NCBI GenBank assembly: GCA_902590895.1
Contig: CACIYM010000004.1
Span: 1-53,740, forward strand
Reading direction: 5' to 3'
Origin: an uncultured Alphaproteobacteria bacterium
Lineage (GTDB): Bacteria > Pseudomonadota > Alphaproteobacteria > Methylaequorales > Methylaequoraceae
DNA: 53,740 nucleotides
Below are positions 2 through 37,935 of this stretch, piece by piece. The translations under genes were made by a program, and so were the position numbers. A model generated the notes under the pieces. It was not told where the DNA came from and ran no database searches. It saw nothing but the letters and a program-made list of their open reading frames with translations. Positions within the stretch are counted from its first letter, which is position 1; every line of letters starts with the position of its first letter.

Positions 2-3000
2 GTAAACTTTGACAATTCTATAATAACTGTTTCAGGTTTACAGGGTGGTGAAACATTAGCTTTGGATGATGATATTAATACTAACAATGTGAATGTTGGA
101 ACATATAATACTGGATCGGGTAATTTGTTAGTTTCTGATGTCAATAACTCTCATGTTACTTACAAAAAGGTAGCTGATCATGGAGGAGATGGTACTAAAG
201 TAAACTGGCCAGGAACCTCAAATCACGAACTTACTCCAGATTCTGGAGAATCAACTGAGGATTTTACACAAAGAGCACTTGAATTGATGAACACGGCTGG
301 TTCTGGAATCGCTTATTTTGTGATGACTTATTCGGATAATACCAAAACTACTGCGACTTCTGCAAAGGCTAAGGCAAGCGCTAGTGTTGTTGGATCAAGT
401 ATTAGCGGCAAAGACCTTTTTACAGTAGCGACAAATCAATCAGATATTGAAACGGCAACAAGTAAAACAGCCTCTGATTATGGAGCAGGATTTAGATTGC
501 TTGACGGAACAGGATTTGCGTCAAACTACACTATTACAAGCAATTCCTTTGCAATTACCCAGCGAGTGTTGAGTTCTTCAGGAAGCAGACTGTATGATGC
601 AACTACAACAGCTAGCTCCAGCGACTTAACTCTAAGTAATCTTGTAGGTTCCGAAACATTGACATTATCAGGAAGCGGTACATTAAGTGATGCTGATGTT
701 GCCGCCAATAAAGCAGTTTCATTAAATACATTATCTATTGCTGATAATACTGGGTTAGCTTCTAACTATACGCTTAGTGGCGGTACGCATCAGTTAACTG
801 TGAATCAACGTCCGCTAAATGCGACACTAGCCAGACAATATGACGGAACAACAGCATCTGCAGGTTCGACTTTGAGCAGCTTTGATGCGTTGCAAGGGGG
901 AGAAACTCTAACATTAAGTGGTTCTGGCACATCTGCTAGTGCCAATGTTGCTAATGGAATAGCTATGAGCAGTAATGGGAACCTTGCTCTTGTTGATGGA
1001 ACAGGTCTGGCATCGAATTATAGTTTAAACTCAACGGTAATCAATATTACAAAAAGAGTGCTGAACTCGTCGGGGTCTAAGATTTATGATGCGAACACGG
1101 ATGCGTTAGCGGCAGACATTACATTAAGTAACTTAGTCTCAGGTGAAGCCCTAAACCACTCGGGAACAGCTACGATTAGTTCAGCCAATGTGGGTAGTTA
1201 TACAATTACAAATTTAGCCGGCATTACAATCGCTGATGGCAGTGGAGGAACAGCTTCCAACTATACCCTTACTGGTGGTACACATAACTTTACGGTTAAT
1301 CCGAAAGTTGTCTCAATCCAAGGAAATAAAACGTATGACGGTAATACCACGATTAGTTCGGGTAATATTACATCAGTTGTTGGTACAGTTGGAACGCAAA
1401 CTCTTATAATTAGTGGAGGAAGCGGGACTGTCTCATCCGCTAATGCGGCGACCTATGCTAGTGCCGGTATTAATGAGGGTACCTTGACGCTGGGTAATGG
1501 TACGAATGGTGGCTTAGCAAGTAATTATACATTAACAGGCCATGCGGCAAGTTCGTTCCAAGTTACGCAAAGAGTACTAAGTTCATCTGGTAGTCGTATT
1601 TATGACGGTAGTACAACAGCCAGTTCAGGTGATTTAACTTTAAGTAATTTAGTGGGGTCAGAAACATTAACGTTATCGGGTAATGGTACACTCGCCAACG
1701 CAAATGTTGGGACGAATAAAAGTGTAACTCTGAACACATTATCGATTGCTAATGGAACAAATGGAGGTCTTGCTGCTAACTATATTTTGACTGGAGGAAC
1801 ACATCAATTAACAGTAACGCAACGAGTTGTAAATGCGACAGGAACACGTCTGTATGATGCGACATCAAATGCCAATTCTAGTGACTTAAGCCTTGGAAAT
1901 TTAGTCGGATCAGAGACATTGGTATTAAGTGGGGCGGGAACACTCGCTGATAAGAACGTTGCGGCCAATAAAACAATAGGTGTAGGCACACTTGGTCTTG
2001 CAGACGGCAGTAACGGTGGATTAGCGGCGAACTATACTTTGTCTTCTGGAACGCATTTATTGACGATTAATCAAAAACCAGTTAGCATAACTGGTACTCG
2101 TACATACGACGCAACAGCGATAACTTTGCCAACTGATTTAAGCATCGGCGGACTTGTCGGTGGTGAGTCAATATCGTTGACTGGTCAGGGATCAATTGCC
2201 GACAAAAATGTGGGTGCTGGGAAGACAATTACGCTTAATACTTTAACACTAAATAACGGAGCCAACCCAACTCACCTCGCTTCAAATTATACCTTCACCG
2301 GGGGCACTCATACCTTCGATGTTACTCAGCGAACTTTGACTTTCAGTGGGACAAAAGTATACGACGGAAATACGACAGTAAGCTCATCTGAACTTACTAC
2401 AATTACTAATTTAATCGGAGGAGAAACACTAACATTTTCTGGATCTGGTTCAGTAGCATCTGCAAACGTTCAATCAGGTCAATCAATTACTAACGGAACA
2501 CTAAGTATTAATGATGGAACTGGATTAGCAAGCAATTATAACCTAACTACGGGAACGTTTGATATCACCCAACGTTGGGTAACGCTTACAGGAACAAGGA
2601 GTTATGATGGAACAACCACCGCGGATAGTTCTGATCTAGTTATCTCAAATTTAGTAGCAGGCGAAACCCTGGGATTAACAGGAAATGGTACTGTAGCTTC
2701 TAAAAACGTAGGATCAAATAAAACAATAACTGATGTCTCGCTAACGCTAACAGATGGATCGGGTCTTGCGACGAACTATACAATTGGAACAAAAACTTTT
2801 AACATCACTCAGCAAGCCATATCAATAGATGGTTCTAAAGTTTATGACGGAAACACAACGGTAGCAGCAGCAAATATTTCGACATTTAATGGATTAGCCC
2901 TTACTGAAACTTTAACCATAAGTGGTTCTGGTACGGTGACCACACCTCAAGTTGGAACAAATAAAACAGTAACACTTGGCACACTTGCCTTAGCTGACGG

Positions 3001-6000
3001 AACTAATGGTGGTGAGGCATCCAACTACTCTTTGGCTAGTGGTACATTTGACGTAACGGCTAGACCAATTACTCTGTCTGGTAGTCGTGTATATGATGGA
3101 ACAACAACAGTAGCTAACAATGATCTTACAACATTTACTAATATTGTTTCGGGTGAATCACTTGCTCTTACTGGCTCTGGAACAATTGCAGATCAAAATG
3201 TGGGAACAAATAAAGCAGTTACCCTTGGAACACTTGCATTAGCTGATAACACAGGTAGTGCGTCAAATTATAGCCTTAGTTCAGCAACATTTGATGTAAG
3301 TCAAAGACCATTAAATATTACAGCAACGAAAGCTTATGATGGAAACACCTCAATCACCTCAGGGTCTGTTACGTTATCAAACTTAGTTGGCGTTGAAACA
3401 CTTACCACATCAGGGAATATTTCAACAAACACTATAAATGCTGGGTCTTTTTCAACCTCGGATATAACGGTAAGCTCACTATCACTATCAGATGGAACAG
3501 GGACAGCTTCAAACTACACTCTAAGTGGAGGAACTTACTCAGCCACTATTACCCAAAAGACACTAGGACTTTCAGGTATTAAAGTTTATGACTCGACAAC
3601 AGCGGCTAATTCATCAGATCTAAGTTTAACAGGATTAGTTGGATCAGAAACGCTTACTTTAAGTGGAAGTGGAACGCTTTCTACATCGTCTGTTGGCACA
3701 GGAAAAACAATTACCCTGAATACACTAGCTATATCTGATGGTAGTGGACTGGCTTTGAATTATGACTTATCAGGAGCGGCAACAATGGATGTTACAGCAC
3801 GACCGGTAACGGCTAGTGGCTCAAGAGTTTACGATGGAACAACAACTGTGAATGGAACCAATCTAACGTCAATCAGTAATTTAGCTGGAGCAGATACACT
3901 TAGTATAACGGGAGCGGGAACAGCAACGGCAAATGTCGGTAATGGTAAATCAGTAACCTTGGGATCACTAGCACTTGCCAGCGGCAGTGGAAACGCCACA
4001 AATTATTCACTTTCATCAGCAACGGTCAATATAACTCAACGTCCATTAGATTTAGAGGCTTCAAAGATTTATGATGGAACAACAACAATTAATGGATCTG
4101 ACTTTTCAACCTTTAATAATATTGTTGGTGGTGAGACGTTGTCCGTTATAGGTTCGGGAACGGTTACATCAGCCAATGTCGGAGCTGGAAAATCGATAAC
4201 ATCAGTAAATCTTGCATTAGCCAATGGAACGGGATCTGCTAGTAACTATTCAATTAATTCATTAACTGCTGACATAACTGGCAGACCGGTAACTATTTCT
4301 GGATCTCGCCTTTATGACAGCACTACAACGGCAGATAGTTCAATTCTTACAATTACTTCGGGTGTAAGTGGGGAAAATCTAACGTTGACGGGTTCTGGAA
4401 TATTAGGAGCGGCAAGTGCAGGTTCTCAAACGATAACAAATAACAATACATTAGCCTTAGCTGACGGAACCGGACTTGCCAGTAATTATACATTAACTTC
4501 AGCGACAATAAATGTAACCATAAATCCAAGAATGCTCAATGTTACATTATCAAGAGAATATGATGGAACAACAACAGTTTCAGGTGCATCATTGACACCA
4601 ACATTTGATAGTTTACAAGGCGGTGAAACACTAGCTCTTTCAGGCACAGGTTCTGTTGCAAGTGCAGATGTTGGAAGCTCTAAAGCAGTAACTTTAGGAA
4701 CAATAGTCTTGGCTGCTGGTTCTGGTAACCCAAGTAATTATACGCTTAATTCAGCTTTAATGGATGTTACCCAAAGGGTAATTAACCTTGATGGTATTAG
4801 AGCTTATGATGCCACAACAAATGTATTAAGTTCAGATATAAATACATTTGGAAATATTGTTTCAGGAGAAACTCTGACGGTTTCTGGAACAGGATCAGTT
4901 TCGACCAATTCAGTTGAAATGAATAAAGCGATTTCACTTGGGACTTTGTCTCTAGGAAACGGGTCGGGTTTAGCCGGCAACTATACTTTAGCTGGAGGAA
5001 CTCATACATTTGACATTTCCCCTTTGGCTGTAAATGTAACTGGAAGTAGACAATATAATGGAACGAATGTTATAGACAGTTCAGACTTATTGCTTACTAA
5101 TCTGTTAACAGGAGAAACAGTTAGTTTATCTGGACAGGGAACAGTTGTGTCTGCTGATGTTGGCGCTAATAAGACAGTGACATCTGTTAATTTGGCATTA
5201 ACGGGCCCTAACGCGAGTAATTATACATTAAATAGCTACACAACAAGTTTTGAAATTACACCAAAGATAATTAGTTTAAATGGGACAAAAGTTTATGATG
5301 GTCTTACTACCGTTCCGAATACAAGTTTAACAGTTACAACTGGTGTTAGTGGTCAGAGCCTTGGATTAAAAGGAGCAGGTACACTTTTATCTGAATCCTC
5401 AGGAAATGGAAAAACAGTTTTACTAGGAACCTTAGAACTTGACTCCACGGGTTCAGGCACTGCAAGTAACTTCACACTGTCCGGAGGAACACATACATTA
5501 AATGTAACTCCAAGGCCATTAACATTTACCTCATCAAGAAGTTATGACGGAACAACTACGGCAAACACATCAGATTTAACATACACATTTGGGAATTTAG
5601 TTTCAGGTGAGAGTCTGGTTTTATCTGGTTCGGGAACAGTGGCATCAAAGGATGTTTCAGCTGGAACACAAAATATTTCACTAGGAACTATTGCGTTAGC
5701 AAATAATACAGGTGTAGCTACAAATTATTCTCTAGCATCAGGCACATTGGATGTTACCAAGAAGCAAGTCAATCTTACTGGAACAAAAGTTTACGATAAT
5801 AGCGCAACACTTAACAATTCAATAATGTCAGTTGCATCTGGGCTGGTTGGATCGGAGACATTAGGATTAAGTGGTGATGTTGTAACCAATTCAGATAATG
5901 TCGGCATATACTTGGCAAGTGCTAATCAATTAAATTCTGGATCAACTACTATTTCTCTAGCTGATGGATCTAATGGTGGTTTAGCAAACAATTATACTAT

Positions 6001-8179
6001 CAATGAACAAACCATCACGATAACAAAGAGACCAATAACAATCTCAGGTACAAAAGTTTATGATGGTACAAAAGCAGTCAATGCGGGAAGCATCACAACC
6101 TTTAACAATACAGTTGGAGGACAAACTCTGACAATCTCTGGAAACACAACATTTCTAGAATCACAAAGTGTTGGATCAAGTAAGACAATAACCGTTTCTG
6201 GTTTTACACTTGGAGATGGCACCGGTGCTGCAAGTAACTACAGTCTAAGTAGCGGTACTTTTGATGTTACAACACGTTCAGTAACATTAACAACTAGTAG
6301 GATTTATGACAATACTAAGGATGTTAACGCTTCAAATCTTTCAGTGACCTTTAATAACCTTGTTGGTTCTGAAACACTTTCATTAACAGGATTAGGTGCA
6401 GTGTCTTCAGAAAATGTTAGTGCAGGACAACAAGCTGTTACACTGGGAACGTTAGCTCTGTCTGATAATACAGGTGTGGCCTCAAATTATTCTTTAACAT
6501 CGGCTACTTTAGATATTAATGTCAAGCCAGTTTCATTGAGTGGAACGAGAGTTTACGATTCGTTAGATACTGTAGCGTCGACAGATTTAACAATATCAGG
6601 TACTGTTAGTGGTCAAGATCTAACGTTGTCAGGCAGTGGTAGCATGACTGCAGGCGCTAATGTCGGGACAAACAAAACAATTAATACAACTGGATTATCA
6701 CTAGGTAATGGAGTAAGTGGAACTCCAGGATCTACATCCAACTATTCACTAGTTGGCGGGACCCATCAAATAACCATTACTCAAAGACCTGTAACAATAA
6801 GCGGATCTAGATTTTATAATTCTACAACAACAGTAAGTAGTTCTGATATCAGCACATTTAATAATACCGCTGGAGGCGAAACATTAGCGATAACAGGAGC
6901 TGGTTCTGTTGCTAGCGCTCTTTCAGGCGCAGGTAAAACTATAACACTGGGAACACTAACCCTCACAGACGGAACAGGATTGGCTTCAAACTATTCGTTA
7001 GCGAGTGGAACATTTGATGTAAACTCTAGACAGGTAAATATTTCAGGATCGAGAATTTTTGATGGAACTACTGTTGTCAATGGAACAGATTTGGTTGTAA
7101 CAACAGGTGTAGGAAGCGAGATTTTAACAGTGACTGGTACAGGAAGCATATCAAATGCTAGCGTCGGAGTAGGCAAATCTGTGACAGCTGGTACGTTAGC
7201 CTTGGCTAGCGGAAGTGGTTCCTCATCAAACTATACTATTGGTTCCATTACTCTAACAGTAACCCAAAGACCCATTAATACTGCTTTTGAAAAAACTTAT
7301 GATGCTAGTGTAAGTGTAACAAACAGCGATTTAAAAACTAACGGTATTACTAATACTGTGCTCGGACACTCACTCGCACTAAGTGGTACTGGAACTATGT
7401 CCACCACTGGCGTAGGTATAGGCAAGTCGTTGTCCGTTGGTACACTTTCTCTAAGTGGAGCTCAGTCGGCAAATTACACTCTCACTGGCGGTACTCACAC
7501 CATTGATGTAAACCCAAGAACTACAAACGCGACTGGATCAAGGCACTATGATGCTTCCACTATAGCGGGAGGTTCGGCCTTCAATACCTTTAGTAATACT
7601 GTAGGCAGCGATACCGTGACGTTATCAGGCTCAGGTAGCTTTGCATCTGCCGGCGTTGGTTCAAAAGGTGTTACTATTGGAACTTTGCAGTCAGCTCACC
7701 CTAATTATACCTTGGGGAATGCAACATTAACTGTTACACAAAGACCAGTTAATTTATTTGGTAGTAGAGTTGCCGGAGGACCAGAGGGAACAGATGTTGA
7801 GGTATCTGAACTTCGTTTTACAAACTTGCCTGCTGGTGAAACGTTGAATTTATCAGGTATTGGAAGAATTCCAAGTATTGCCGTATCAACTCATCCACTA
7901 AGTTTACATACCCTAACAATGAGTAATGGAACAGGTTTGATTTCAAATTATACTTTTGTTGGTGGGTCTTTTGTTTTTGATATAACCTCGCCTCTAAGGT
8001 CCAGAGCTGGGGTTCTGCGGGCATTACAGACAATGAGTAATGGAAATAATAGAAAGTTATTGCCATCTAAAACATCTCATCGCTCAATGCCAGCTACTTC
8101 TGAAAGAATTACAGTATCAACACCAGATCAGTCAGTTCAAGTCAATCCTTGTGTACTACAAAATGGTTACTGTAATTAA
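2..8179 (+). CDS. Giant YDG-repeat surface/secreted adhesin-like protein, 5'-truncated by window edge
   Basis: The frame is open from base 2 with no stop, so the apparent TTG start at 62 is not the real start; 2725 codons are visible. Almost all of it is a tandem array of about 80-residue units of the YDG type (pattern: R-P-[VLI], hydrophobics, G-[ST]-[RK]-x-YDG-T-T, then ..GETLTLSGSGT.., ending in ..ASNY[ST]L..GT..[FI].VTQ). YDG units are known from filamentous-haemagglutinin-like, two-partner-secreted proteins, so the missing N-terminus probably carries a signal peptide and a TPS/haemagglutination domain. The final 63 residues are non-repetitive and end in NPCVLQNGYCN, with the only two cysteines I find in the protein. 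Residues are rich in S, T, G, N and A, and the DNA is visibly more GC-rich than neighbouring genes. Role inferred: extracellular adhesin or cell-surface fibre. No partner TpsB gene is in the window. Confidence 0.9.
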   Translation, partial: VNFDNSIITVSGLQGGETLALDDDINTNNVNVGTYNTGSGNLLVSDVNNSHVTYKKVADHGGDGTKVNWPGTSNHELTPDSGESTEDFTQRALELMNTAGSGIAYFVMTYSDNTKTTATSAKAKASASVVGSSISGKDLFTVATNQSDIETATSKTASDYGAGFRLLDGTGFASNYTITSNSFAITQRVLSSSGSRLYDATTTASSSDLTLSNLVGSETLTLSGSGTLSDADVAANKAVSLNTLSIADNTGLASNYTLSGGTHQLTVNQRPLNATLARQYDGTTASAGSTLSSFDALQGGETLTLSGSGTSASANVANGIAMSSNGNLALVDGTGLASNYSLNSTVINITKRVLNSSGSKIYDANTDALAADITLSNLVSGEALNHSGTATISSANVGSYTITNLAGITIADGSGGTASNYTLTGGTHNFTVNPKVVSIQGNKTYDGNTTISSGNITSVVGTVGTQTLIISGGSGTVSSANAATYASAGINEGTLTLGNGTNGGLASNYTLTGHAASSFQVTQRVLSSSGSRIYDGSTTASSGDLTLSNLVGSETLTLSGNGTLANANVGTNKSVTLNTLSIANGTNGGLAANYILTGGTHQLTVTQRVVNATGTRLYDATSNANSSDLSLGNLVGSETLVLSGAGTLADKNVAANKTIGVGTLGLADGSNGGLAANYTLSSGTHLLTINQKPVSITGTRTYDATAITLPTDLSIGGLVGGESISLTGQGSIADKNVGAGKTITLNTLTLNNGANPTHLASNYTFTGGTHTFDVTQRTLTFSGTKVYDGNTTVSSSELTTITNLIGGETLTFSGSGSVASANVQSGQSITNGTLSINDGTGLASNYNLTTGTFDITQRWVTLTGTRSYDGTTTADSSDLVISNLVAGETLGLTGNGTVASKNVGSNKTITDVSLTLTDGSGLATNYTIGTKTFNITQQAISIDGSKVYDGNTTVAAANISTFNGLALTETLTISGSGTVTTPQVGTNKTVTLGTLALADGTNGGEASNYSLASGTFDVTARPITLSGSRVYDGTTTVANNDLTTFTNIVSGESLALTGSGTIADQNVGTNKAVTLGTLALADNTGSASNYSLSSATFDVSQRPLNITATKAYDGNTSITSGSVTLSNLVGVETLTTSGNISTNTINAGSFSTSDITVSSLSLSDGTGTASNYTLSGGTYSATITQKTLGLSGIKVYDSTTAANSSDLSLTGLVGSETLTLSGSGTLSTSSVGTGKTITLNTLAISDGSGLALNYDLSGAATMDVTARPVTASGSRVYDGTTTVNGTNLTSISNLAGADTLSITGAGTATANVGNGKSVTLGSLALASGSGNATNYSLSSATVNITQRPLDLEASKIYDGTTTINGSDFSTFNNIVGGETLSVIGSGTVTSANVGAGKSITSVNLALANGTGSASNYSINSLTADITGRPVTISGSRLYDSTTTADSSILTITSGVSGENLTLTGSGILGAASAGSQTITNNNTLALADGTGLASNYTLTSATINVTINPRMLNVTLSREYDGTTTVSGASLTPTFDSLQGGETLALSGTGSVASADVGSSKAVTLGTIVLAAGSGNPSNYTLNSALMDVTQRVINLDGIRAYDATTNVLSSDINTFGNIVSGETLTVSGTGSVSTNSVEMNKAISLGTLSLGNGSGLAGNYTLAGGTHTFDISPLAVNVTGSRQYNGTNVIDSSDLLLTNLLTGETVSLSGQGTVVSADVGANKTVTSVNLALTGPNASNYTLNSYTTSFEITPKIISLNGTKVYDGLTTVPNTSLTVTTGVSGQSLGLKGAGTLLSESSGNGKTVLLGTLELDSTGSGTASNFTLSGGTHTLNVTPRPLTFTSSRSYDGTTTANTSDLTYTFGNLVSGESLVLSGSGTVASKDVSAGTQNISLGTIALANNTGVATNYSLASGTLDVTKKQVNLTGTKVYDNSATLNNSIMSVASGLVGSETLGLSGDVVTNSDNVGIYLASANQLNSGSTTISLADGSNGGLANNYTINEQTITITKRPITISGTKVYDGTKAVNAGSITTFNNTVGGQTLTISGNTTFLESQSVGSSKTITVSGFTLGDGTGAASNYSLSSGTFDVTTRSVTLTTSRIYDNTKDVNASNLSVTFNNLVGSETLSLTGLGAVSSENVSAGQQAVTLGTLALSDNTGVASNYSLTSATLDINVKPVSLSGTRVYDSLDTVASTDLTISGTVSGQDLTLSGSGSMTAGANVGTNKTINTTGLSLGNGVSGTPGSTSNYSLVGGTHQITITQRPVTISGSRFYNSTTTVSSSDISTFNNTAGGETLAITGAGSVASALSGAGKTITLGTLTLTDGTGLASNYSLASGTFDVNSRQVNISGSRIFDGTTVVNGTDLVVTTGVGSEILTVTGTGSISNASVGVGKSVTAGTLALASGSGSSSNYTIGSITLTVTQRPINTAFEKTYDASVSVTNSDLKTNGITNTVLGHSLALSGTGTMSTTGVGIGKSLSVGTLSLSGAQSANYTLTGGTHTIDVNPRTTNATGSRHYDASTIAGGSAFNTFSNTVGSDTVTLSGSGSFASAGVGSKGVTIGTLQSAHPNYTLGNATLTVTQRPVNLFGSRVAGGPEGTDVEVSELRFTNLPAGETLNLSGIGRIPSIAVSTHPLSLHTLTMSNGTGLISNYTFVGGSFVFDITSPLRSRAGVLRALQTMSNGNNRKLLPSKTSHRSMPATSERITVSTPDQSVQVNPCVLQNGYCN
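563..7987 (+). repeat. Tandem array of 30 complete YDG-type coding repeats
   Basis: Thirty full units run without a break from the first RVLSSSGSRLYD unit (563) to the last unit ending FVFDIT (7987), about 82 codons each. A further partial or interrupted unit precedes them. Units begin at the position after TQ/NP/TA/TK and share the YD motif near residue 11, the GETL..SG core near residue 33 and ASNY near residue 65. The last unit has lost the YDG motif (GSRVAGG at its place), as is common at the edge of arrays. The DNA is far less repetitive than the protein: some units share runs such as TATGATGGAACAACAACA, whereas others use different synonymous codons throughout. Confidence 0.92.
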
Positions 8180-30713: not shown

Positions 30714-30890
30714 ATGCTTAATTTAATTTCTAATATAAGATTCGATAGAATTAAAAGAAGTCATGATCATTCTTTCAAAAAAAATCTTGATAACTTTACA
30801 AATTCAGAACTAAGCATTCTTCCAGAAAATAATACCCTAGATACACAAATATCCTCTGCAGTTTGGATTGATCTTTATCGAAAACAATAA
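30714..30890 (+). CDS. Small hypothetical protein, 58 aa
   Basis: ATG-to-TAA frame of 58 codons. It starts MLNLISNIRFDRIKRSHDH and ends AVWIDLYRKQ. It is basic at the N-terminus, has no signal peptide or membrane helix, and contains one tryptophan. It lies 30 bp after the four-cysteine protein on the same strand, and its stop codon is inside the left arm of the terminator hairpin, as expected for the last gene of the operon. The ribosome-binding site is weak (AAGG, too far upstream). I do not recognise it. Confidence 0.5.
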   Translation: MLNLISNIRFDRIKRSHDHSFKKNLDNFTNSELSILPENNTLDTQISSAVWIDLYRKQ

Positions 30891-30916
30891 AACCCTGAAT
30901 ATATCAGGGTTTTATT
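30886..30916 (+). terminator. Perfect 13-bp hairpin terminator of the ArnT-PAP2 operon
   Basis: Arms 30886-30898 (AATAAAACCCTGA) and 30904-30916 (TCAGGGTTTTATT) pair perfectly around a 5-nt ATATA loop. A CCCTGA/TCAGGG core is flanked by A and T runs on both sides, so it may work on both strands. It is the only hairpin of this quality that I found in the window. Confidence 0.85.
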
Positions 30917-31099
30917 GGAGGAAATTAAAATAGACTTGAGACTAGCAATAACAAAAATGTTGAGGAGAATGTTATTGCACAAATTTTTGTTATTACCATA
31001 CTAGCCCTATTTATCAATATATAGTTAAAAAATAATAATGTCAAACAATATATTGATTTTTTCTATTTTATTTTAATTTCAATTTTTTAAACTTATTTC
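30917..31099. other. Intergenic region before the lipid cluster
   Basis: This stretch lies within a 416-bp interval (30684-31099) holding the 58-codon ORF and the terminator. The remaining 183 bp contain one possible 24-codon minus-strand frame and otherwise AT-rich DNA in front of the COG2907 gene. The promoter for the plus-strand lipid cluster should lie here, but no box is convincing. A GGAGGA at 30917-30922 is not followed by a long frame. Confidence 0.5.
30925..30999 (-). CDS. Possible 24-aa hydrophobic peptide
   Basis: An ATG-to-TAA frame on the minus strand encoding a peptide that starts MVITKICAITF, continues with a run of S, T, F and L, and ends LVSSLF. This would make one membrane helix. 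An AGGG about 5 nt upstream could serve as a ribosome-binding site. It could equally be chance in AT-rich sequence. Confidence 0.25.
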   Translation of the reverse strand: MVITKICAITFSSTFLLLLVSSLF

Positions 31100-32365
31100 A
31101 TGAAAAAAAAAAAAATAGCTATCATTGGTAGCGGCATTTCTGGACTATCTTGCGCTTGGAAGTTATCAGAAAAATTTGATGTCGAATTATTTGAATGCCA
31201 AAATAGATTTGGCGGTCATTCAAATACTGTTGAGATAAAAGAGGGAAAAAAAACTATCAATGTAGACACTGGCTTTATTGTTTTCAATGAACATAATTAC
31301 CCGCTACTTTGCAAGTTTTTTGATAATTTAGGTGTCAATTCTTATGAGAGTGATATGTCATTTTCGGTTTCTATAACTCATAATAATTTGCAATATTCAG
31401 GTACGAATCTTTTTTCAATTTTTGCTCAACCGAAAAATATAATAAATTTAAATTTTTGGAGAATGTTATTTGAGATTGTCAGATTTAATAGGAATGTCGA
31501 AAAGGATGTCAAAAGTTTTTCAAATTTAACAATCGATCAATACTTGAAAAAAAAAAAATATAGTAATTACTATATGTATAATCATCTTTATCCAATGGCA
31601 GGGAGTATTTGGTCTTCAAAGGTAGGTGATATTAAAAATTATCCTTTTGATAAATTTGTTTCTTTCTTTGCAAACCATGGTCTGCTTAAAATTTTTAATA
31701 GACCAAAGTGGAGAACTGTAAAGGATGGAAGTCGTAGTTATGTCGAAAAAATATTAAAAAATAAAAAAATAAAATTTCATAAATGTACTTCAGTTAAAGT
31801 TAAAAAAAAAAAAGAAAAAAAAGTTTATCTAAATGTTAAGGGTTCAATTAAAAGTTATGATCATTTGGTTATTGCAACTCACTCTGACCAAGTGAAGTCA
31901 GTTTTAAATTTAGGTGTTGTAGAGAAAAAAATCTTTACTAATATGATTTATAAAAAAAATATTGTCTATCTTCATAATGATAAATCTTTGATGCCGAAAA
32001 ATATGAAAGTTTGGTCAAGTTGGAATTACCTTCAAAGTTCTACAAATGCTGGTAAGTTAACAGTTACTTATTGGATGAATAAACTACAAAACCTTAAAAC
32101 AGATACAGACTTTTTTGTTTCGTTAAATCCATTTAAAAAACCTATGAAAGAAAAAATATTTAAAATAATTGAATATGAGCATCCACATTATAATTTCGAA
32201 ACATTTAGAAAACAAAAAGAAATTGATAATATTCAAGGGAGAGAAAATATTTGGTTTTGCGGTGCTTATTTGGGATATGGTTTTCACGAAGATGGTATCA
32301 GCTCATCTATGAATGTTGCAAGAAGGATACATGATTTTGAAAAAGAAAAATTCAATGAACTCTGA
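31100..32365 (+). CDS. FAD/NAD(P)-binding flavoprotein, COG2907 (amine-oxidase-like)
   Basis: A 421-residue flavoprotein with the dinucleotide-binding N-terminus IAIIGSGISGLSCAWKLSE and the following NRFGGHSNTVEI. FNEHNYPLLCKFFDNLGV is characteristic of COG2907. The C-terminal FAD-contact region reads FCGAYLGYGFHEDGISSS. In many proteobacteria this gene precedes DUF1365 and a CFA-like methyltransferase, as here, and related proteins are proposed to oxidise or desaturate methylated fatty acyl chains; that role is inference. Thirteen consecutive A residues follow directly after the ATG (31103-31115). Confidence 0.88.
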   Translation: MKKKKIAIIGSGISGLSCAWKLSEKFDVELFECQNRFGGHSNTVEIKEGKKTINVDTGFIVFNEHNYPLLCKFFDNLGVNSYESDMSFSVSITHNNLQYSGTNLFSIFAQPKNIINLNFWRMLFEIVRFNRNVEKDVKSFSNLTIDQYLKKKKYSNYYMYNHLYPMAGSIWSSKVGDIKNYPFDKFVSFFANHGLLKIFNRPKWRTVKDGSRSYVEKILKNKKIKFHKCTSVKVKKKKEKKVYLNVKGSIKSYDHLVIATHSDQVKSVLNLGVVEKKIFTNMIYKKNIVYLHNDKSLMPKNMKVWSSWNYLQSSTNAGKLTVTYWMNKLQNLKTDTDFFVSLNPFKKPMKEKIFKIIEYEHPHYNFETFRKQKEIDNIQGRENIWFCGAYLGYGFHEDGISSSMNVARRIHDFEKEKFNEL

Positions 32366-33101
32366 TGAAAACTTGCTTTTTTCTGGAATTGTAAGTCATG
32401 AACGGATAAAACCTTTTAAACATTCTTTCAAGTATAACGTAACATATTTTTGGTTTGATATAAATATTTCAGAGAAATACAAATTACTTAAAAAAAATAA
32501 ATTATCTCTTTTTTCCTTTTTTGATAGAGATCATGGCCCTGTTAAACCCAAAGTTGAATGCCTTAACAAATATTTAAAGAGTAAGTTAGATTTAAAAAAA
32601 AACGAAATTAAAACAATAAAAGTGTTGTGCTTACCAAGAACCATTGGATACGTTTTTAATCCAATCTCAGTTTTTTTAATTTATGATTATAAAAACATTC
32701 CCGTAAGGATAGTTTTTGAAGTAAGTAATACTTTTGGTGAAAGGCACGCTTATGTATGTAAGGTAAATACCAAAGGGGTTTACTATTTAAATAAGGTACT
32801 TTACGTTTCTCCTTTTTTTAAAACTGAAGGAAAATATAAAATCCAATTCAATATAAAAAAAAAAGTTATTAATTTACTTATCTTTTACAACGTAAATAAT
32901 ATTAGGGTATTCAAGGCATCATTCATTGGGAATTCAAAAAAAATGTCAGAATTTAATTTACTAACACTATTTTTTAGTAATATGTTTCAAAATTTTAAAG
33001 TAACCTTTGGAATTTACATTCAGGCCTTGAAACTTTGGTTAAAAGGTGCAAAATACATAAATAAACCAAACAAACCAAAGAACTTCATAACAAGAATATA
33101 A
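32355..33101 (+). CDS. DUF1365 family protein
   Basis: I start at MNSDENLLFSGIVSHERIKP, 11 bp inside the preceding gene, rather than 14 codons upstream, because the conserved DUF1365 opening (L..G.V.H.R..P..H.F.Y) begins just after this ATG. This gives 248 residues. LFSFFDRDHGP, VLCLPRTIGYVFNPISVF and NTFGERHAYVC are strong family matches. The protein is soluble or peripheral, of unknown activity, and almost always paired with COG2907 and a CFA-like enzyme. A role in modifying membrane acyl chains is inferred from this context. Confidence 0.92.
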   Translation: MNSDENLLFSGIVSHERIKPFKHSFKYNVTYFWFDINISEKYKLLKKNKLSLFSFFDRDHGPVKPKVECLNKYLKSKLDLKKNEIKTIKVLCLPRTIGYVFNPISVFLIYDYKNIPVRIVFEVSNTFGERHAYVCKVNTKGVYYLNKVLYVSPFFKTEGKYKIQFNIKKKVINLLIFYNVNNIRVFKASFIGNSKKMSEFNLLTLFFSNMFQNFKVTFGIYIQALKLWLKGAKYINKPNKPKNFITRI

Positions 33102-33107
33102 TTTTAA

Positions 33108-34292
33108 ATGGATAAAGAGTTTAAGGCAAAAGCCGATCTTTTTTTTAGCGTTTTGTCTCAAGGAAAATTTGGGTCAATAGAAGTTTATTACGAAAAAAAA
33201 AAAATCTTCTTTCATCGTGGTAATCTTCCTGGACCTAATGCTCGAATAAAACTTTTAGATAAAAAATGTCTAGATGATTTTTTCCTCAAAGGAGATCTTG
33301 GTTGGGCAGAAAGTTATATTGAAAGTAATTGGGAGTCGACAAACCTCTCAGATTTTCTAGAGTGGGGAGCAAAGAACTTTCACGAGTTTTCAAAGTATAT
33401 AAGAGGTAAATGGTTTGTCATCCTCTACTTAAGACTAAAGCATTATCTTAACAGAAATTCTAAAACAGGATCAAAAAAAAATATCTCCTTTCATTATGAT
33501 TTGGGTAATTCTTTTTATGAAAAGTGGCTTGATAAATCAATGACATATTCATCAGGTATGTTTAAAAAAAATTCTGATGATTTATATGATGCACAACTAA
33601 ATAAGTATAGAAATTTGGCGAAAATAACTAAAATTAAAAACAAAGATAAGGTCCTAGAAATTGGATGTGGATGGGGAGGATTTTCGTGTTTCCTAGCTAA
33701 AAATTTTTCAGCTGATGTTACAGCAATTACTATATCAAAAAAACAATATGAAAAAGTAAAAGAAAAAGTTTACAAAGAAAAATTAACCGAAAAAGTTAAC
33801 GTTAAATTAACTGATTATAGAGAGATAAAAGGACTTTATGATAAAATAGTTTCGATTGAAATGTTTGAGGCTGTCGGGGAAAAATACTGGTCAAAATACT
33901 TTGATATCTTGAGGAGTAATTTAAAACATAATGGAGCTATTGGGCTACAAACCATAACTATAGAGGACAAATTTTTCAAAAAATATAGGAAATTTCCTGA
34001 CTTTATTCAAACTTACATTTTTCCTGGAGGAATGTTACCTTCAATCGAGGAAATGAGTAAGGTTTTAAAATCAAAAGGTCTAACAATTGAAAAAAAACAA
34101 ATGTTTGGAAATGATTATGCAAAAACCTTAAGAATGTGGTCAAAGTCTTTTGAGAGTTCTTGGGATAATATTAAAAAAGAGGGTTTTAATGATACATTTA
34201 GAAGAATGTGGAGATATTATCTTGGTTATTGTGAGGGAGGGTTTAAATCAGGAAATATTAATGTTGGACAATTTTTGATTAAAAAGAACTAG
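33108..34292 (+). CDS. Cyclopropane-fatty-acyl-phospholipid synthase-like SAM methyltransferase with altered active site
   Basis: A 394-residue CFA-synthase family enzyme. The N-terminal lipid-binding region (about 1-125) is followed by the methyltransferase core with NISFHYDLGNSFYEKWLD, SAM motif VLEIGCGWGGFSCFLAKNF and TAITISKKQYEK. Compared with my memory of E. coli Cfa, two bicarbonate-site residues differ: Ser149 (in MTYSSGMF) replaces Cys139 and Gln281 (in IGLQTITI) replaces His266. Glu254, Ile283 and Tyr337 are kept. The enzyme probably methylates unsaturated phospholipid acyl chains, but cyclopropane as product is doubtful. It lies 6 bp after DUF1365 in the same operon. Confidence 0.9.
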   Translation: MDKEFKAKADLFFSVLSQGKFGSIEVYYEKKKIFFHRGNLPGPNARIKLLDKKCLDDFFLKGDLGWAESYIESNWESTNLSDFLEWGAKNFHEFSKYIRGKWFVILYLRLKHYLNRNSKTGSKKNISFHYDLGNSFYEKWLDKSMTYSSGMFKKNSDDLYDAQLNKYRNLAKITKIKNKDKVLEIGCGWGGFSCFLAKNFSADVTAITISKKQYEKVKEKVYKEKLTEKVNVKLTDYREIKGLYDKIVSIEMFEAVGEKYWSKYFDILRSNLKHNGAIGLQTITIEDKFFKKYRKFPDFIQTYIFPGGMLPSIEEMSKVLKSKGLTIEKKQMFGNDYAKTLRMWSKSFESSWDNIKKEGFNDTFRRMWRYYLGYCEGGFKSGNINVGQFLIKKN

Positions 34293-35578
34293 TGAAAAAA
34301 ATTTCTTCAAGAAATATCTTTTATTCTTTACCAGCCTTCTCTTTTGCAATACCAACTTTCCCAGTGATGATAATGCTCCCAGCATTTTTCGCTGAGGTTC
34401 ATAACTTTGATATTGCAATTATTGGAACATATATATTTCTTGCAAAGCTAATTGATATTGCCTCTGATCCCATTGTTGGCTGGATTAATGATAAAAAAAA
34501 TTTAAACAGGAAGTTTTTAATAATTTTGGGTTCAATTCTTTGTTCAATAGGGCTTTATAAACTTTTTATACAAAAACAAATTGATTATGACGCTTACTTA
34601 CTTGTGTGGATAAGCGTTTTATATTTAGGTTGGACGTTCTTCCAAATACCTTATTTGTCTATTGGTTATGATTTAGAAAAGGACTACTTTTTGAGAACAA
34701 AACTTAGTGCGAATAGAGAACTTTTCATTTTATTTGGTCTTTTCTTTTCTTTAGGTTTCCCAATGTTTTTTAATTTTAGTAATGCTGAGCTTCTTAGTTT
34801 AATTGTTTATATAGCAATTTTTTCAGGTTTTATTGGAGTTTCAGTTATGCTTTACAAAATTCCTGATAATCGAACAACAAATAAAGATGTTGAATTAAAA
34901 AGCGTTTTTAAAAATTTAAAAAACAATTACTTGTTAGTAAGATTAATGTTTGCATGGTTTGTAAATAGTCTTGCAAACGTTTTTCCCATGATATTATTTT
35001 CATTTTATGTATCTTACGTTCTCGGAGGTAGTGACGGTGATAGACAAGTTGTTCTTTTCTATTATTTTTTATTTGCTATCCTGGGTGTACCCTTTTGGAC
35101 ATATGTAAGCAAAAGGTTTGGGAAAAAAAAAACTTGGGTTAGTTCTTTAATACTATCAGCATTTTTCTTTATATTTGTTTTGTTTCTATCTAAAGGAGAC
35201 TTACAATACTTTATTATTATCTCGTGTATTACAGGTTTTTGTCTAGGTGCTGACTTGATAATTCCTCCTTCTATTCAAGCGGACTTAAGTGATGTTCATC
35301 TTAATAAATTTAAGGAGGATATTTCTGGTATTTTATTTTCTTTAATAACTTTTTTTAATAAATTATCTTTTGCTGTAGCTAGTTTATTTGTATTTTCCAT
35401 TTTGAGTTATCTTAATTTTGAAGCTAACAAAGAAATTAATCCAGAAACTAAAATTTTCATAATATTTAGTTATGCATTAACCCCAATCTTATTAAAATGT
35501 TTGTCATCATTCATTTTGATGAGTTTTAGAATAACAGAAATGGATCTTAAAAAAATTCAGAAAAAAATTTATGGTTGA
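34292..35578 (+). CDS. MFS transporter, GPH/MFS_2-like
   Basis: A 428-residue transporter with about twelve membrane helices. The pattern FLAKLIDIASDPIVGWINDK (loop 2-3 of the GPH/melibiose-type family) and the mid-protein RFGKKKTWVSS are typical. Family homologues (COG2211) are found in the same COG2907-DUF1365-CFA clusters of other proteobacteria, where a lipid or lysolipid substrate is possible but unproven. The start is GTG overlapping the last base of the methyltransferase stop, so translation is coupled. Confidence 0.85.
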   Translation: MKKISSRNIFYSLPAFSFAIPTFPVMIMLPAFFAEVHNFDIAIIGTYIFLAKLIDIASDPIVGWINDKKNLNRKFLIILGSILCSIGLYKLFIQKQIDYDAYLLVWISVLYLGWTFFQIPYLSIGYDLEKDYFLRTKLSANRELFILFGLFFSLGFPMFFNFSNAELLSLIVYIAIFSGFIGVSVMLYKIPDNRTTNKDVELKSVFKNLKNNYLLVRLMFAWFVNSLANVFPMILFSFYVSYVLGGSDGDRQVVLFYYFLFAILGVPFWTYVSKRFGKKKTWVSSLILSAFFFIFVLFLSKGDLQYFIIISCITGFCLGADLIIPPSIQADLSDVHLNKFKEDISGILFSLITFFNKLSFAVASLFVFSILSYLNFEANKEINPETKIFIIFSYALTPILLKCLSSFILMSFRITEMDLKKIQKKIYG

Positions 35579-35608: not shown

Positions 35609-36130
35609 ATGCGATTTTTAATAGTAATTTTTCTTTTTATAACTTCTTGTTCAACAGATATGAATATAAACGATTTCAGTGATAAAAAACCTAATTTTAA
35701 ACTTGAAGAATACTTCAATGGCAAAACAGAGGCATGGGGAATGTTTCATGATAGATTTGGAAACCTAAAAAGATCTTTTAAGGTTGATATTGTAGGAACG
35801 TTGAATTCAAATACTCTTACTTTAGATGAAAAGTTTCTTTATGATGATGGAGAAAAAGATACTAGAATTTGGACCATAAAAATTCTAGGTGATAACAGAT
35901 ATTCAGGCGAGGCTTCAGATGTTGTCGGCAAAGCTACAGGAATATCAAGTGGTAATGCATTAAATTGGAAGTACAAGTTAAATCTTAAAGTTAAAGACAG
36001 CACAATTATGGTTGACTTTGATGATTGGATGTTTCTTCAGGACAAAGGTATACTAATTAATCGAGCTGAAGTTAAAAAATGGGGACTTAATATCGGTGTG
36101 GTAACAATTACTTTTTTAAAGCTTGATTAG
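35609..36130 (+). CDS. DUF3833 lipoprotein
   Basis: A 173-residue protein with a lipoprotein signal peptide (hydrophobic stretch then lipobox FITSC, Cys at about position 14). FKLEEYFNGKTEAWGMFHDR followed by GNLKRSFKVD, DEKFLYDDGEKDTRIW and NWKYKLNLKV match DUF3833, a calycin/lipocalin-like domain commonly encoded with COG2907, DUF1365 and CFA-like genes. It is likely anchored to a membrane facing the periplasm. Function unknown. It ends with a 4-bp overlap with the convergent NTF2-like gene. Confidence 0.9.
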   Translation: MRFLIVIFLFITSCSTDMNINDFSDKKPNFKLEEYFNGKTEAWGMFHDRFGNLKRSFKVDIVGTLNSNTLTLDEKFLYDDGEKDTRIWTIKILGDNRYSGEASDVVGKATGISSGNALNWKYKLNLKVKDSTIMVDFDDWMFLQDKGILINRAEVKKWGLNIGVVTITFLKLD

Positions 36131-36531
36131 TCGTTGTGAATTTTTTTAAAAATTGAACCAATTATTGGCAGATTAGAATACACATTTACCCCACTGTCCC
36201 AATAATCAATGTGCTTATAAATTAGATTTTTTTTAATAATTATCTCACTTATTCCATCAAAGTTTAACTTCTTCTTGGAACCTTCATATTCAAAATTCCA
36301 TTTAATAAGAGTAAGATTTTTTTCTTCTAAAACATTCAAAATTTTAAATTTCGGATTTTTAATTTTGACAAACATTTTATTTAAAAATTTTCTAAAACAC
36401 TCTTTACCTTTTATTTTATTAAACGGATCGATAAAAACAAAATCTTCATGTAAACAGTCTACAAGGTTGTTAATTGTGGATTGTTTTAATTGCTCAAAAG
36501 ATTTAGTGTATTCTTTTGTAATATTCTTCAT
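36127..36531 (-). CDS. NTF2/SnoaL-like protein
   Basis: A 134-residue cone-shaped alpha+beta (NTF2-like) protein. The helix with LVDCLHEDFVFIDPFNKIKG and FRKFLNKMF, then the strands LIKWNFEYEGSKKKLNFDGI and IYKHIDYWDSG, follow the SnoaL-like pattern. It may be a small enzyme or binding protein. It is the third gene of a minus-strand operon DUF6134 - SDR - NTF2; its ATG overlaps the SDR stop by 4 bp. SDR plus NTF2-like genes are common members of RpoE-ChrR-controlled clusters together with CFA-like genes. Confidence 0.85.
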   Translation of the reverse strand: MKNITKEYTKSFEQLKQSTINNLVDCLHEDFVFIDPFNKIKGKECFRKFLNKMFVKIKNPKFKILNVLEEKNLTLIKWNFEYEGSKKKLNFDGISEIIIKKNLIYKHIDYWDSGVNVYSNLPIIGSIFKKIHND

Positions 36532-37283
36532 TCTGGCAGTTTTACAAATTTTTTGATTAAATAGAAGTAAATCCTATATGGAAGAAAGCTTAGTATTTTC
36601 ATTGGTATCAAAAGCATTTTTGGAAAATAGATTTCGAAAATATTTGAATTTATTTTTGAGAAAATTATTTTTGCTGCTTTTTCAGAACTCATTAAAAATG
36701 GCATTGGAAAAGTATTTTTATCAGTCATCGGAGTTTTAATAAAACCTGGATGAACTACTTGTACTTTGATATTAAATTGTTCTAGTTCTATCTTTAAAGT
36801 TTCTGCTAAAAAAGTTAAGCCTGATTTTGTTACTCCGTATAAGCCAGCTCCTGGCATTCCTCTATATCCTGCTGGTGATGACACAAAAATAACATGCCCC
36901 TTTTGTTTCTTCTTCATCGTATTAACAATTATTGGAAGGCAATTTATGATACCCGTTAAATTAGTATCAATAACTTTTTTAGCGTTTATAGGGGAAATTT
37001 CTTTTAAGGAACCAGGGCTATAAATTGCAGCATTAAGAACTAATAGATCAATAAATTTGAATTTCTTAATTATTTTTTTTGCAACAATGTCAGTCTCTTT
37101 TAAATTACTAACATCAAGTTTGTATGGGAAAATTTTCTTTTTGTTGTACTTTGCAACCTCGATTAATTTATCTTTTCGTCTTCCGCTTATTACTACGTCA
37201 AATCCATTATCACACAAAAGTTTGGTTAAATCTTTTCCTATTCCTGTGCCTCCCCCAGTAAGCCAAACTGTTTTTTTATTCAT
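36528..37283 (-). CDS. Short-chain dehydrogenase/reductase
   Basis: A 251-residue classical SDR. Cofactor motif TGGGTGIGKDLTKLL, followed by the basic SGRRKDKL, suggests NADP(H). The NAAIYSPG (NAG-like) strand, the catalytic serine in FVSSPAGYRGMPGAG and the LYGVTKSG (YxxxK) motif are all present. The C-terminal hydrophobic stretch KMLLIPMKILSFLPYRIYF may bind membrane. Substrate unknown; the lipid-gene neighbourhood makes a lipid-derived aldehyde or ketone plausible. The gene overlaps DUF6134 upstream (8 bp) and NTF2-like downstream. Confidence 0.93.
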   Translation of the reverse strand: MNKKTVWLTGGGTGIGKDLTKLLCDNGFDVVISGRRKDKLIEVAKYNKKKIFPYKLDVSNLKETDIVAKKIIKKFKFIDLLVLNAAIYSPGSLKEISPINAKKVIDTNLTGIINCLPIIVNTMKKKQKGHVIFVSSPAGYRGMPGAGLYGVTKSGLTFLAETLKIELEQFNIKVQVVHPGFIKTPMTDKNTFPMPFLMSSEKAAKIIFSKINSNIFEIYFPKMLLIPMKILSFLPYRIYFYLIKKFVKLPE

Positions 37284-37935
37284 TGTTATCGAAGTCCTTT
37301 AAAAAGTATTCAATTTCACTTCCATCCTTATAAAATATCATTTTAACCCATTGAGAATCTTTATACCAAATATCGATATCTACATCATCGCCGGTAATTT
37401 CTTTACCAGTTAATTTAAAGTGCTCGGCTAACATTTCGTTGTTGTAGATGTTATCTTCTCCAAGGTAATTAATCTTAAAGTCGATAAAGCTACAATCTTG
37501 AGTGTTTAAAACTGTCTTATCTTTTTTATCTTTAACCAAATCGTAGTTCCAATAACTTGAAGGTATAATTATGTCATTAATCTTTTCTTTATTATTTGTT
37601 CCATCTAAAGAAATGCTATTGTTAATTTTATTTACATTGCAAAATAAATTTTCACCATCTTTGTCAGTCTTGGATTTTAATTGAACCAAAGAATTGTTAA
37701 ACCAGTTTTCATTGTTTTGGTGAAAATAATTGTAAACAGTGAAGCCAAGGAAGGTTACTTCAAATTTTATTTCAACAAATGGGTTAACTGAATTGTTGTT
37801 TTTATTAAAATTAATTTTGTGGTATCCAATTTTTGAACCATTTCTGTATACATTGAAATGTATGTCTTTCAATTCTGTACTTTTGACTTCTAGAAAATTA
37901 CCAAGAAGAATAACTATTATTAGTAAAGATTTCAA
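37276..37935 (-). CDS. Secreted DUF6134-like protein
   Basis: A 219-residue protein with an N-terminal signal peptide (about residues 1-20) and a beta-rich mature part. IHFNVYRNGSKIGYHKINF at the start, VTFLGFTVYNYFHQNNENW and the late DIDIWYKDSQWVKMIF match my recollection of DUF6134, a periplasmic family of unknown function. The only usable start seems to be TTG, 12 nt after a perfect 11-bp hairpin. It is the first gene of the DUF6134 - SDR - NTF2 operon. Confidence 0.75.
   Translation of the reverse strand: MKSLLIIVILLGNFLEVKSTELKDIHFNVYRNGSKIGYHKINFNKNNNSVNPFVEIKFEVTFLGFTVYNYFHQNNENWFNNSLVQLKSKTDKDGENLFCNVNKINNSISLDGTNNKEKINDIIIPSSYWNYDLVKDKKDKTVLNTQDCSFIDFKINYLGEDNIYNNEMLAEHFKLTGKEITGDDVDIDIWYKDSQWVKMIFYKDGSEIEYFLKDFDNNE

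Follow-up and report, generated by a model that had tools for sequence, protein, structure and literature searches.

A probable furan fatty acid gene set, ufaD-ufaO-ufaM, in a HIMB59-type marine alphaproteobacterium and the active-site signature of its methylase

The stretch of DNA analysed here (the window, 53,740 nucleotides) was contig 4 of a 1.07-Mb draft genome with an estimated completeness of 71%. The gene under study, located at 33108-34292 on the plus strand, was an intact open reading frame with an ATG start which encoded 394 amino acids, and the assembly contained no other full-length CMAS gene. The product was annotated as a UfaM homologue, that is, a SAM-dependent fatty-acyl methylase of the CMAS/CFAS fold. 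It matched the CMAS Pfam model with E=8e-82 and carried an intact SAM motif (LEIGCGWGG), and its score against PRK11705 (Cfa) was 275 bits, below the 400-bit equivalog cut-off. The AlphaFold2 model (mean pLDDT 89.7) matched Lactobacillus CFAS (5Z9O) and E. coli CFAS (6BQC) over the full length with TM of 0.77-0.87, and a full-length match to Aquifex 7QOS was also obtained; therefore, the product possesses a true CFAS fold. The identity to E. coli Cfa in the structure match was 27%, and the agreement of the model with solved CFAS enzymes supported the residue alignment with E. coli Cfa used below. The gene was under purifying selection (pN/pS 0.09-0.25) and no internal stops were found. The nearest named relatives were two uncultured marine alphaproteobacteria: over the protein, 97% identity was found to AG-901-J22 and 81% to alpha proteobacterium MED-G10 ("HIMB59-MED-G10"). 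The operon-linked relatives beyond the HIMB59 and SAR11 lineages showed low identity of about 37-45%. A nucleotide-level search of plasmids gave no match.

Two genes were located directly upstream in the order ufaD-ufaO-ufaM. The gene at 31100-32365 (plus strand) encoded a COG2907-type FAD-dependent oxidoreductase of 421 amino acids (Pfam Amino_oxidase, 6e-17, and NAD_binding_8), in which 41 of the 42 columns conserved at 95% or more in 59 homologues were kept, including the GxGxxG...E FAD motif. The sequence-only reading had proposed that this flavoprotein could be a desaturase, and its homology to UfaD agreed with that proposal, making it a putative desaturase of the methylated chain. The gene at 32313-33101 (plus strand) encoded a DUF1365 protein (PF07103, E=1e-59) of 262 amino acids from the first ATG, with a possible internal start, for example the ATG at 32358. 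All 19 columns conserved at 95% or more in 56 homologues were kept in this protein, a UfaO homologue and putative furan-forming oxygenase.

Downstream, a GPH/MFS-type transporter gene (34292-35578, plus strand, 428 amino acids, PF13347) began with a GTG codon overlapping the final base of ufaM, followed by a gene for a DUF3833 protein (35609-36130, plus strand, 173 amino acids, PF12915, 7e-64). The order ufaD-ufaO-ufaM-MFS-DUF3833, with ufaD adjoining, was found in all HIMB59-like relatives with flanking sequence, so both the transporter, a conserved operon member, and the DUF3833 gene were kept in place there. MFS genes were also present in the ufa clusters of Paracoccus, Cupriavidus and Azoarcus, and DUF3833 genes in those of Pseudoalteromonas, Azospirillum, Cupriavidus and Azoarcus. 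On the minus strand, a SnoaL/NTF2-like protein (36127-36531, 134 amino acids) and an SDR oxidoreductase (36528-37283, 251 amino acids, adh_short 8e-45) were encoded, both of which are accessories of ufa clusters elsewhere; the NTF2 gene adjoined the SDR gene in the clusters of Azospirillum, Pseudoalteromonas, Cupriavidus and Azoarcus. A DUF6134 protein, possibly secreted, was encoded downstream of the SDR gene (37276-37935, minus strand). Between a small upstream ORF and ufaD, a near-symmetric 14-pair hairpin with flanking T/A runs (30885-30917) scored as a terminator on the minus strand and may insulate the operon from transcription further upstream, although the promoter and terminator scans of the region, this hairpin included, gave matches no more numerous than in shuffles. 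At the other end of the window, a 2705-amino-acid ORF (62-8179, plus strand) contained dozens of repeats of about 80 residues with a YDGTT/YDxTT core and a short basic tail; it resembled a giant repeat protein that is secreted or displayed on the surface, which would be unusual for a streamlined marine genome.

The active-site residues were mapped by pairwise alignment to E. coli Cfa (6BQC) and by multiple alignment numbered on MG1655 Cfa. The bicarbonate site of bacterial Cfa is formed by Cys139, Glu239, His266, Ile268 and Tyr317. In the protein studied, C139 was replaced by S149 and H266 by Q281, and E254, I283 and Y337 stood in place of E239, I268 and Y317, exactly as the sequence-only reading had aligned them. 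Both changes lay in segments aligned free of gaps (KSMTYSSGMFK and GAIGLQTITIE), and no substitute Cys or His for the lost residues was revealed by the alignment, so that the possibility of their lying elsewhere in the active site, named in that reading as a refutation, was checked and set aside. Two further replacements relative to E. coli Cfa were H240 to A255 and G236 to E251, giving the signature S149-E251-E254-A255-Q281-I283-Y337.

To place these residues in the wider family, CMAS genes with their flanks were collected with the Pfam model from about 140 alphaproteobacterial genomes, together with relatives of the query, named plasmids and E. coli. Six active-site positions were read, and linkage was defined as ufaD-like and DUF1365 genes within 4 kb. 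Among class-sample genes with at least 3 kb of flank, 39 of 49 of the Gln/Ala type (S/A/G-E-A-Q-I-Y) were linked to both genes, compared with 0 of 23 of the Cys/His type (Fisher p = 2.4e-11, in a non-random sample whose regions were picked among the matches listed and whose related genomes are not independent). In the reduced set of 85 signature-bearing homologues, the Glu equivalent to E251 was present in all 85, and position 149 was Ser in 75, Ala in 9 and Gly in 1, whereas the 55 Cys-type homologues had Gly at 236 in every case and Cys at 139 in 54. Because residues 240 and 266 served to define the two sets, these were bound to separate perfectly at both columns; the set definition had no bearing on how they separated at 139 and 236 or on their linkage to ufaD and ufaO. 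With columns 139, 240 and 266 excluded from tree building, the signature required 2 changes compared with about 41 for shuffled labels, and the protein studied was grouped with the operon-linked CMAS clade, apart from the bacterial Cfa clade. The signature together with ufaD-ufaO was also found in Gammaproteobacteria, Betaproteobacteria and Actinomycetota, and with ufa neighbours in Pseudoalteromonas, Acinetobacter, Azoarcus, Streptomyces and Tsukamurella. The substitutions are thus a fixed signature of the whole subfamily, not an oddity or the mark of a broken enzyme, and lineage-specific loss as their cause was rejected by the census. Neither this subfamily-wide nature nor the DUF1365/ufaO gene had been noticed in the sequence-only reading.

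The association had its exceptions. Nine signature-type genes lacking the neighbours were examined, and 7 of the 9 genomes had DUF1365 elsewhere, which is the arrangement of R. sphaeroides. No DUF1365 match was obtained in three sampled genomes with a signature-type CMAS (G037, G048 and G054; L202, L152 and L151), and hence the signature alone is no guarantee of the furan pathway; in these genomes either the pathway ends at the methylated chain or UfaO is absent from the assembly. One Methylophaga gene of the type C-E-H-Q-I-Y fell into the signature clade. In addition, CMAS genes of a distant C-E-H-H-F-Y group were located near some ufa clusters. Members of this distant clade (C/A-E-H-H-F-Y) were observed near the ufa clusters of Rhizobium tropici, Acinetobacter and others (L116:1735-2763, minus; L140:263-1357, minus; L205:832-1872, minus; L226:7753-8859, plus), with a DUF1295 gene adjoining in Rhizobium tropici and Acinetobacter, and they are candidates for FufM-type second methylases or another chain-modifying enzyme.

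What these residues mark is a lineage, the CMAS enzymes partnered by a flavoprotein, and not a product. In cotton, GhCPS1 and GhCPS2 carry Ser at the C139 position and Gln at the H266 position, keep Glu, Ile and Tyr, and make cyclopropane fatty acids, and the C139S variant of E. coli Cfa retained 31% of catalytic efficiency (PMC3132707, whose text gives the GhCPS2 residue as I729, probably a misprint of Q729). The earlier argument that ring closure may fail because two site residues are lost did not survive this comparison, since the Ser/Gln substitutions by themselves do not predict failed ring closure. The identification as a UfaM-like enzyme was instead well supported by gene context. Because the neighbours are homologues of UfaD and UfaO in the proven order ufaD-ufaO-ufaM, the gene at 33108-34292 very probably codes for UfaM, which opens the route to a methylated furan fatty acid of the 9M5-FuFA type, and the DUF1365/UfaO homologue in the operon indicated a furan rather than a methyl-branched product. 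This work established the content and order of the gene set and its intactness, the purifying selection on ufaM, and the signature with its linkage to ufaD and ufaO.

The pathway to furan fatty acids, which are antioxidants, is itself already known, and the locus contains its complete three-gene set. In R. sphaeroides, UfaM converts the cis-vaccenoyl chain to 11-methyl-12-trans-18:1, UfaD turns the latter into the 10t,12t-diene, and from this the DUF1365 protein UfaO forms 9M5-FuFA with oxygen taken from O2; three accessory genes of the operon are dispensable for the product (PMC7380195). RPA2571-2570-2569 of R. palustris correspond to ufaD-ufaO-ufaM, and this trio suffices for 9M5-FuFA (PMC7380195). 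The ufa genes of Halomonas are consecutive, and its UfaM in E. coli produced 11-methyloctadec-12-enoate (PMC12089945). Judging from linkage, R. sphaeroides UfaM (RSP2144) and R. palustris RPA2569 presumably carry the signature as well. By analogy with these characterised homologues, from which all chemical steps and the physiology are drawn, UfaM of the marine bacterium would methylate an 18:1 (cis-vaccenoyl) chain of a phospholipid at its cis double bond, with SAM as the donor, and the resulting cation would lose a proton from the neighbouring chain carbon, not from the new methyl, to give 11-methyl-12-trans-18:1. We infer that the base site in its changed form, perhaps helped by the additional Glu251, would take the chain-carbon proton instead of the methyl proton. 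UfaD would then remove hydrogen to form the conjugated 10t,12t-diene, and UfaO would add one atom of O2 and close the furan ring. A FabA/FabZ-family dehydratase was present in the genome. The product would probably serve to scavenge singlet oxygen in the membrane, the host being a marine bacterium that bears rhodopsin and is exposed to light.

An ordinary cyclopropane fatty acid synthase with a plant-like variant of the bicarbonate site, in which the ring closes and the flavoprotein merely supports the reaction, was considered very improbable. Such a role is consistent with the retained Glu, Ile, Tyr and SAM motif, with the cyclopropanes formed in yeast by the cotton enzymes, in which the same Ser and Gln occur with a fused FAD-binding oxidase domain (PMC3132707), and with the cyclic fatty acids that a Halomonas ufaM strain also showed, though E. 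coli makes its own (PMC12089945). However, the operon contains a DUF1365/UfaO gene, the bacterial ufaD-ufaO-linked homologues tested so far gave the 11-methyl-12-ene (PMC7380195, PMC12089945), yeast expressing the paired genes of Agrobacterium formed no cyclopropane (PMC3132707), and the tree placed the protein apart from bacterial Cfa.

The DUF1365 gene also weighed against a system of the BfaAB/Tms type, in which the methylase would yield a methylene-branched chain and the flavoprotein would reduce it to a saturated 10-methyl fatty acid. The same two enzyme families stand side by side in that system, but bfaAB were described as two-gene operons with DUF1365 unmentioned, and BfaB candidates were chosen for a conserved Cfa bicarbonate site, unlike the one found here (PMC5660069, PMC7791843). 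At this locus DUF1365 formed part of the operon and was conserved within the family, which departs from a two-gene operon with a flavoprotein and no UfaO, and a signature copy was accompanied by DUF1365 even in Tsukamurella and Streptomyces. The BfaAB type was therefore rejected as first choice on account of the DUF1365 gene, and we regarded it as very improbable; of the earlier suggestion of a UfaM/BfaB-type methylase, the UfaM part was upheld by gene context and the signature clade, and the BfaB part was not. A degenerate or inactive paralogue with a lost catalytic site was hardly credible: two of the five classic bicarbonate ligands are changed, but these changes are fixed across many lineages and phyla, the SAM motif is intact, the pN/pS values indicated purifying selection, and the operon is kept in most relatives.

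The preferred assignment, UfaM within a ufaD-ufaO-ufaM set, was mildly new in its setting, namely the HIMB59-like and SAR11-like carriers and the failure to find ChrR in the HIMB59 family; an annotation rule also followed from the census, and the mechanism was not new. According to this rule, Glu236, Ala240 and Gln266 (E. coli numbering), usually with Ser139, point to ufaD/ufaO-linked methylases, which pipelines routinely annotate as "cyclopropane fatty acid synthase". DUF1365 was present in 21 of 25 genomes of the same family, and many more distant, SAR11-like marine genomes (L017-L072), including one Pelagibacteraceae genome (L053), carried ufaD-ufaO-ufaM with the full signature and lacked both the MFS and the DUF3833 gene. 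Streamlined, rhodopsin-bearing marine lineages are thereby shown to possess a complete operon of the furan fatty acid type, which bears on the origin of marine furan fatty acids.

In the clusters examined in other bacteria, a sigma factor and ChrR often adjoined the ufa genes. A ChrR/RpoE singlet-oxygen regulon would be marked by the anti-sigma factor ChrR in the genome; ChrR (TIGR02451) gave no match in the 71%-complete assembly and none above the cut-off in the 25 family genomes. Three sigma factors in the assembly resembled RpoD, RpoH and FliA in length and neighbours. The FliA-like gene (L229, G000:C1 at about 95.6 kb) was located beside FlhF/FlhG-like and flagellar rod-like genes, and the HIMB59-type lineage appears to be flagellated. 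Rhodopsin was encoded in 20 of the 25 same-family genomes, the source genome included, and three genes of the SQS_PSY family (phytoene/squalene synthase) were present in the source genome, so light-driven singlet oxygen is a plausible stress for a HIMB59-type host. That furan fatty acids are made by HIMB59-like and SAR11-like ocean bacteria independently of ChrR, either constitutively or under another regulator, is a tentative proposal on which we lean towards doubt. Searches of the paper library combining furan fatty acids with Pelagibacter gave only an unrelated dinoflagellate paper, and those combining HIMB59 with cyclopropane gave none. If the proposal is true, abundant small-genome bacterioplankton would be an overlooked but major source of those furan fatty acids that occur in marine animals.

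Compared with named systems, the protein shares the fold, the SAM motif, Glu239, Ile268 and Tyr317 with E. coli Cfa (6BQC), whereas Cys139, Gly236, His240 and His266 are all replaced. The mycobacterial BfaA/BfaB pair, which makes 10-methylstearate, likewise combines a flavoprotein with a CMAS methylase, but by description its final product is saturated and DUF1365 is unreported in its operon. Cotton GhCPS1 and GhCPS2, also likened by description, have the same Ser/Gln at the bicarbonate site and both UfaD-like and CMAS domains; in cotton the domains are fused and the cyclopropane product is proven, whereas the genes are separate here. An FAD domain is fused to a CMAS domain in Arabidopsis AT3G23510 too, and the Arabidopsis UfaO homologue is a separate gene. 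The ufaD, ufaO and ufaM of Halomonas sp. YLGW01, a Gammaproteobacterium, form a consecutive trio as here according to the published description (PMC12089945). The closest likeness was to the Ufa pathway of R. sphaeroides (RSP2144, RSP1091, RSP1090) and R. palustris (RPA2569-2571), in which the same three protein families occur. As differences from that system, no second full-length CMAS (FufM) was present in the incomplete assembly (71%), and the R. sphaeroides ufa genes belong to a ChrR-controlled singlet-oxygen response, whereas here they reside in a streamlined marine HIMB59-type genome in which ChrR was not found. The gene order of R. palustris is identical to that of the locus, and the aerobic, light-exposed lifestyle of Rhodobacter and Rhodopseudomonas is compatible with that of the marine host.
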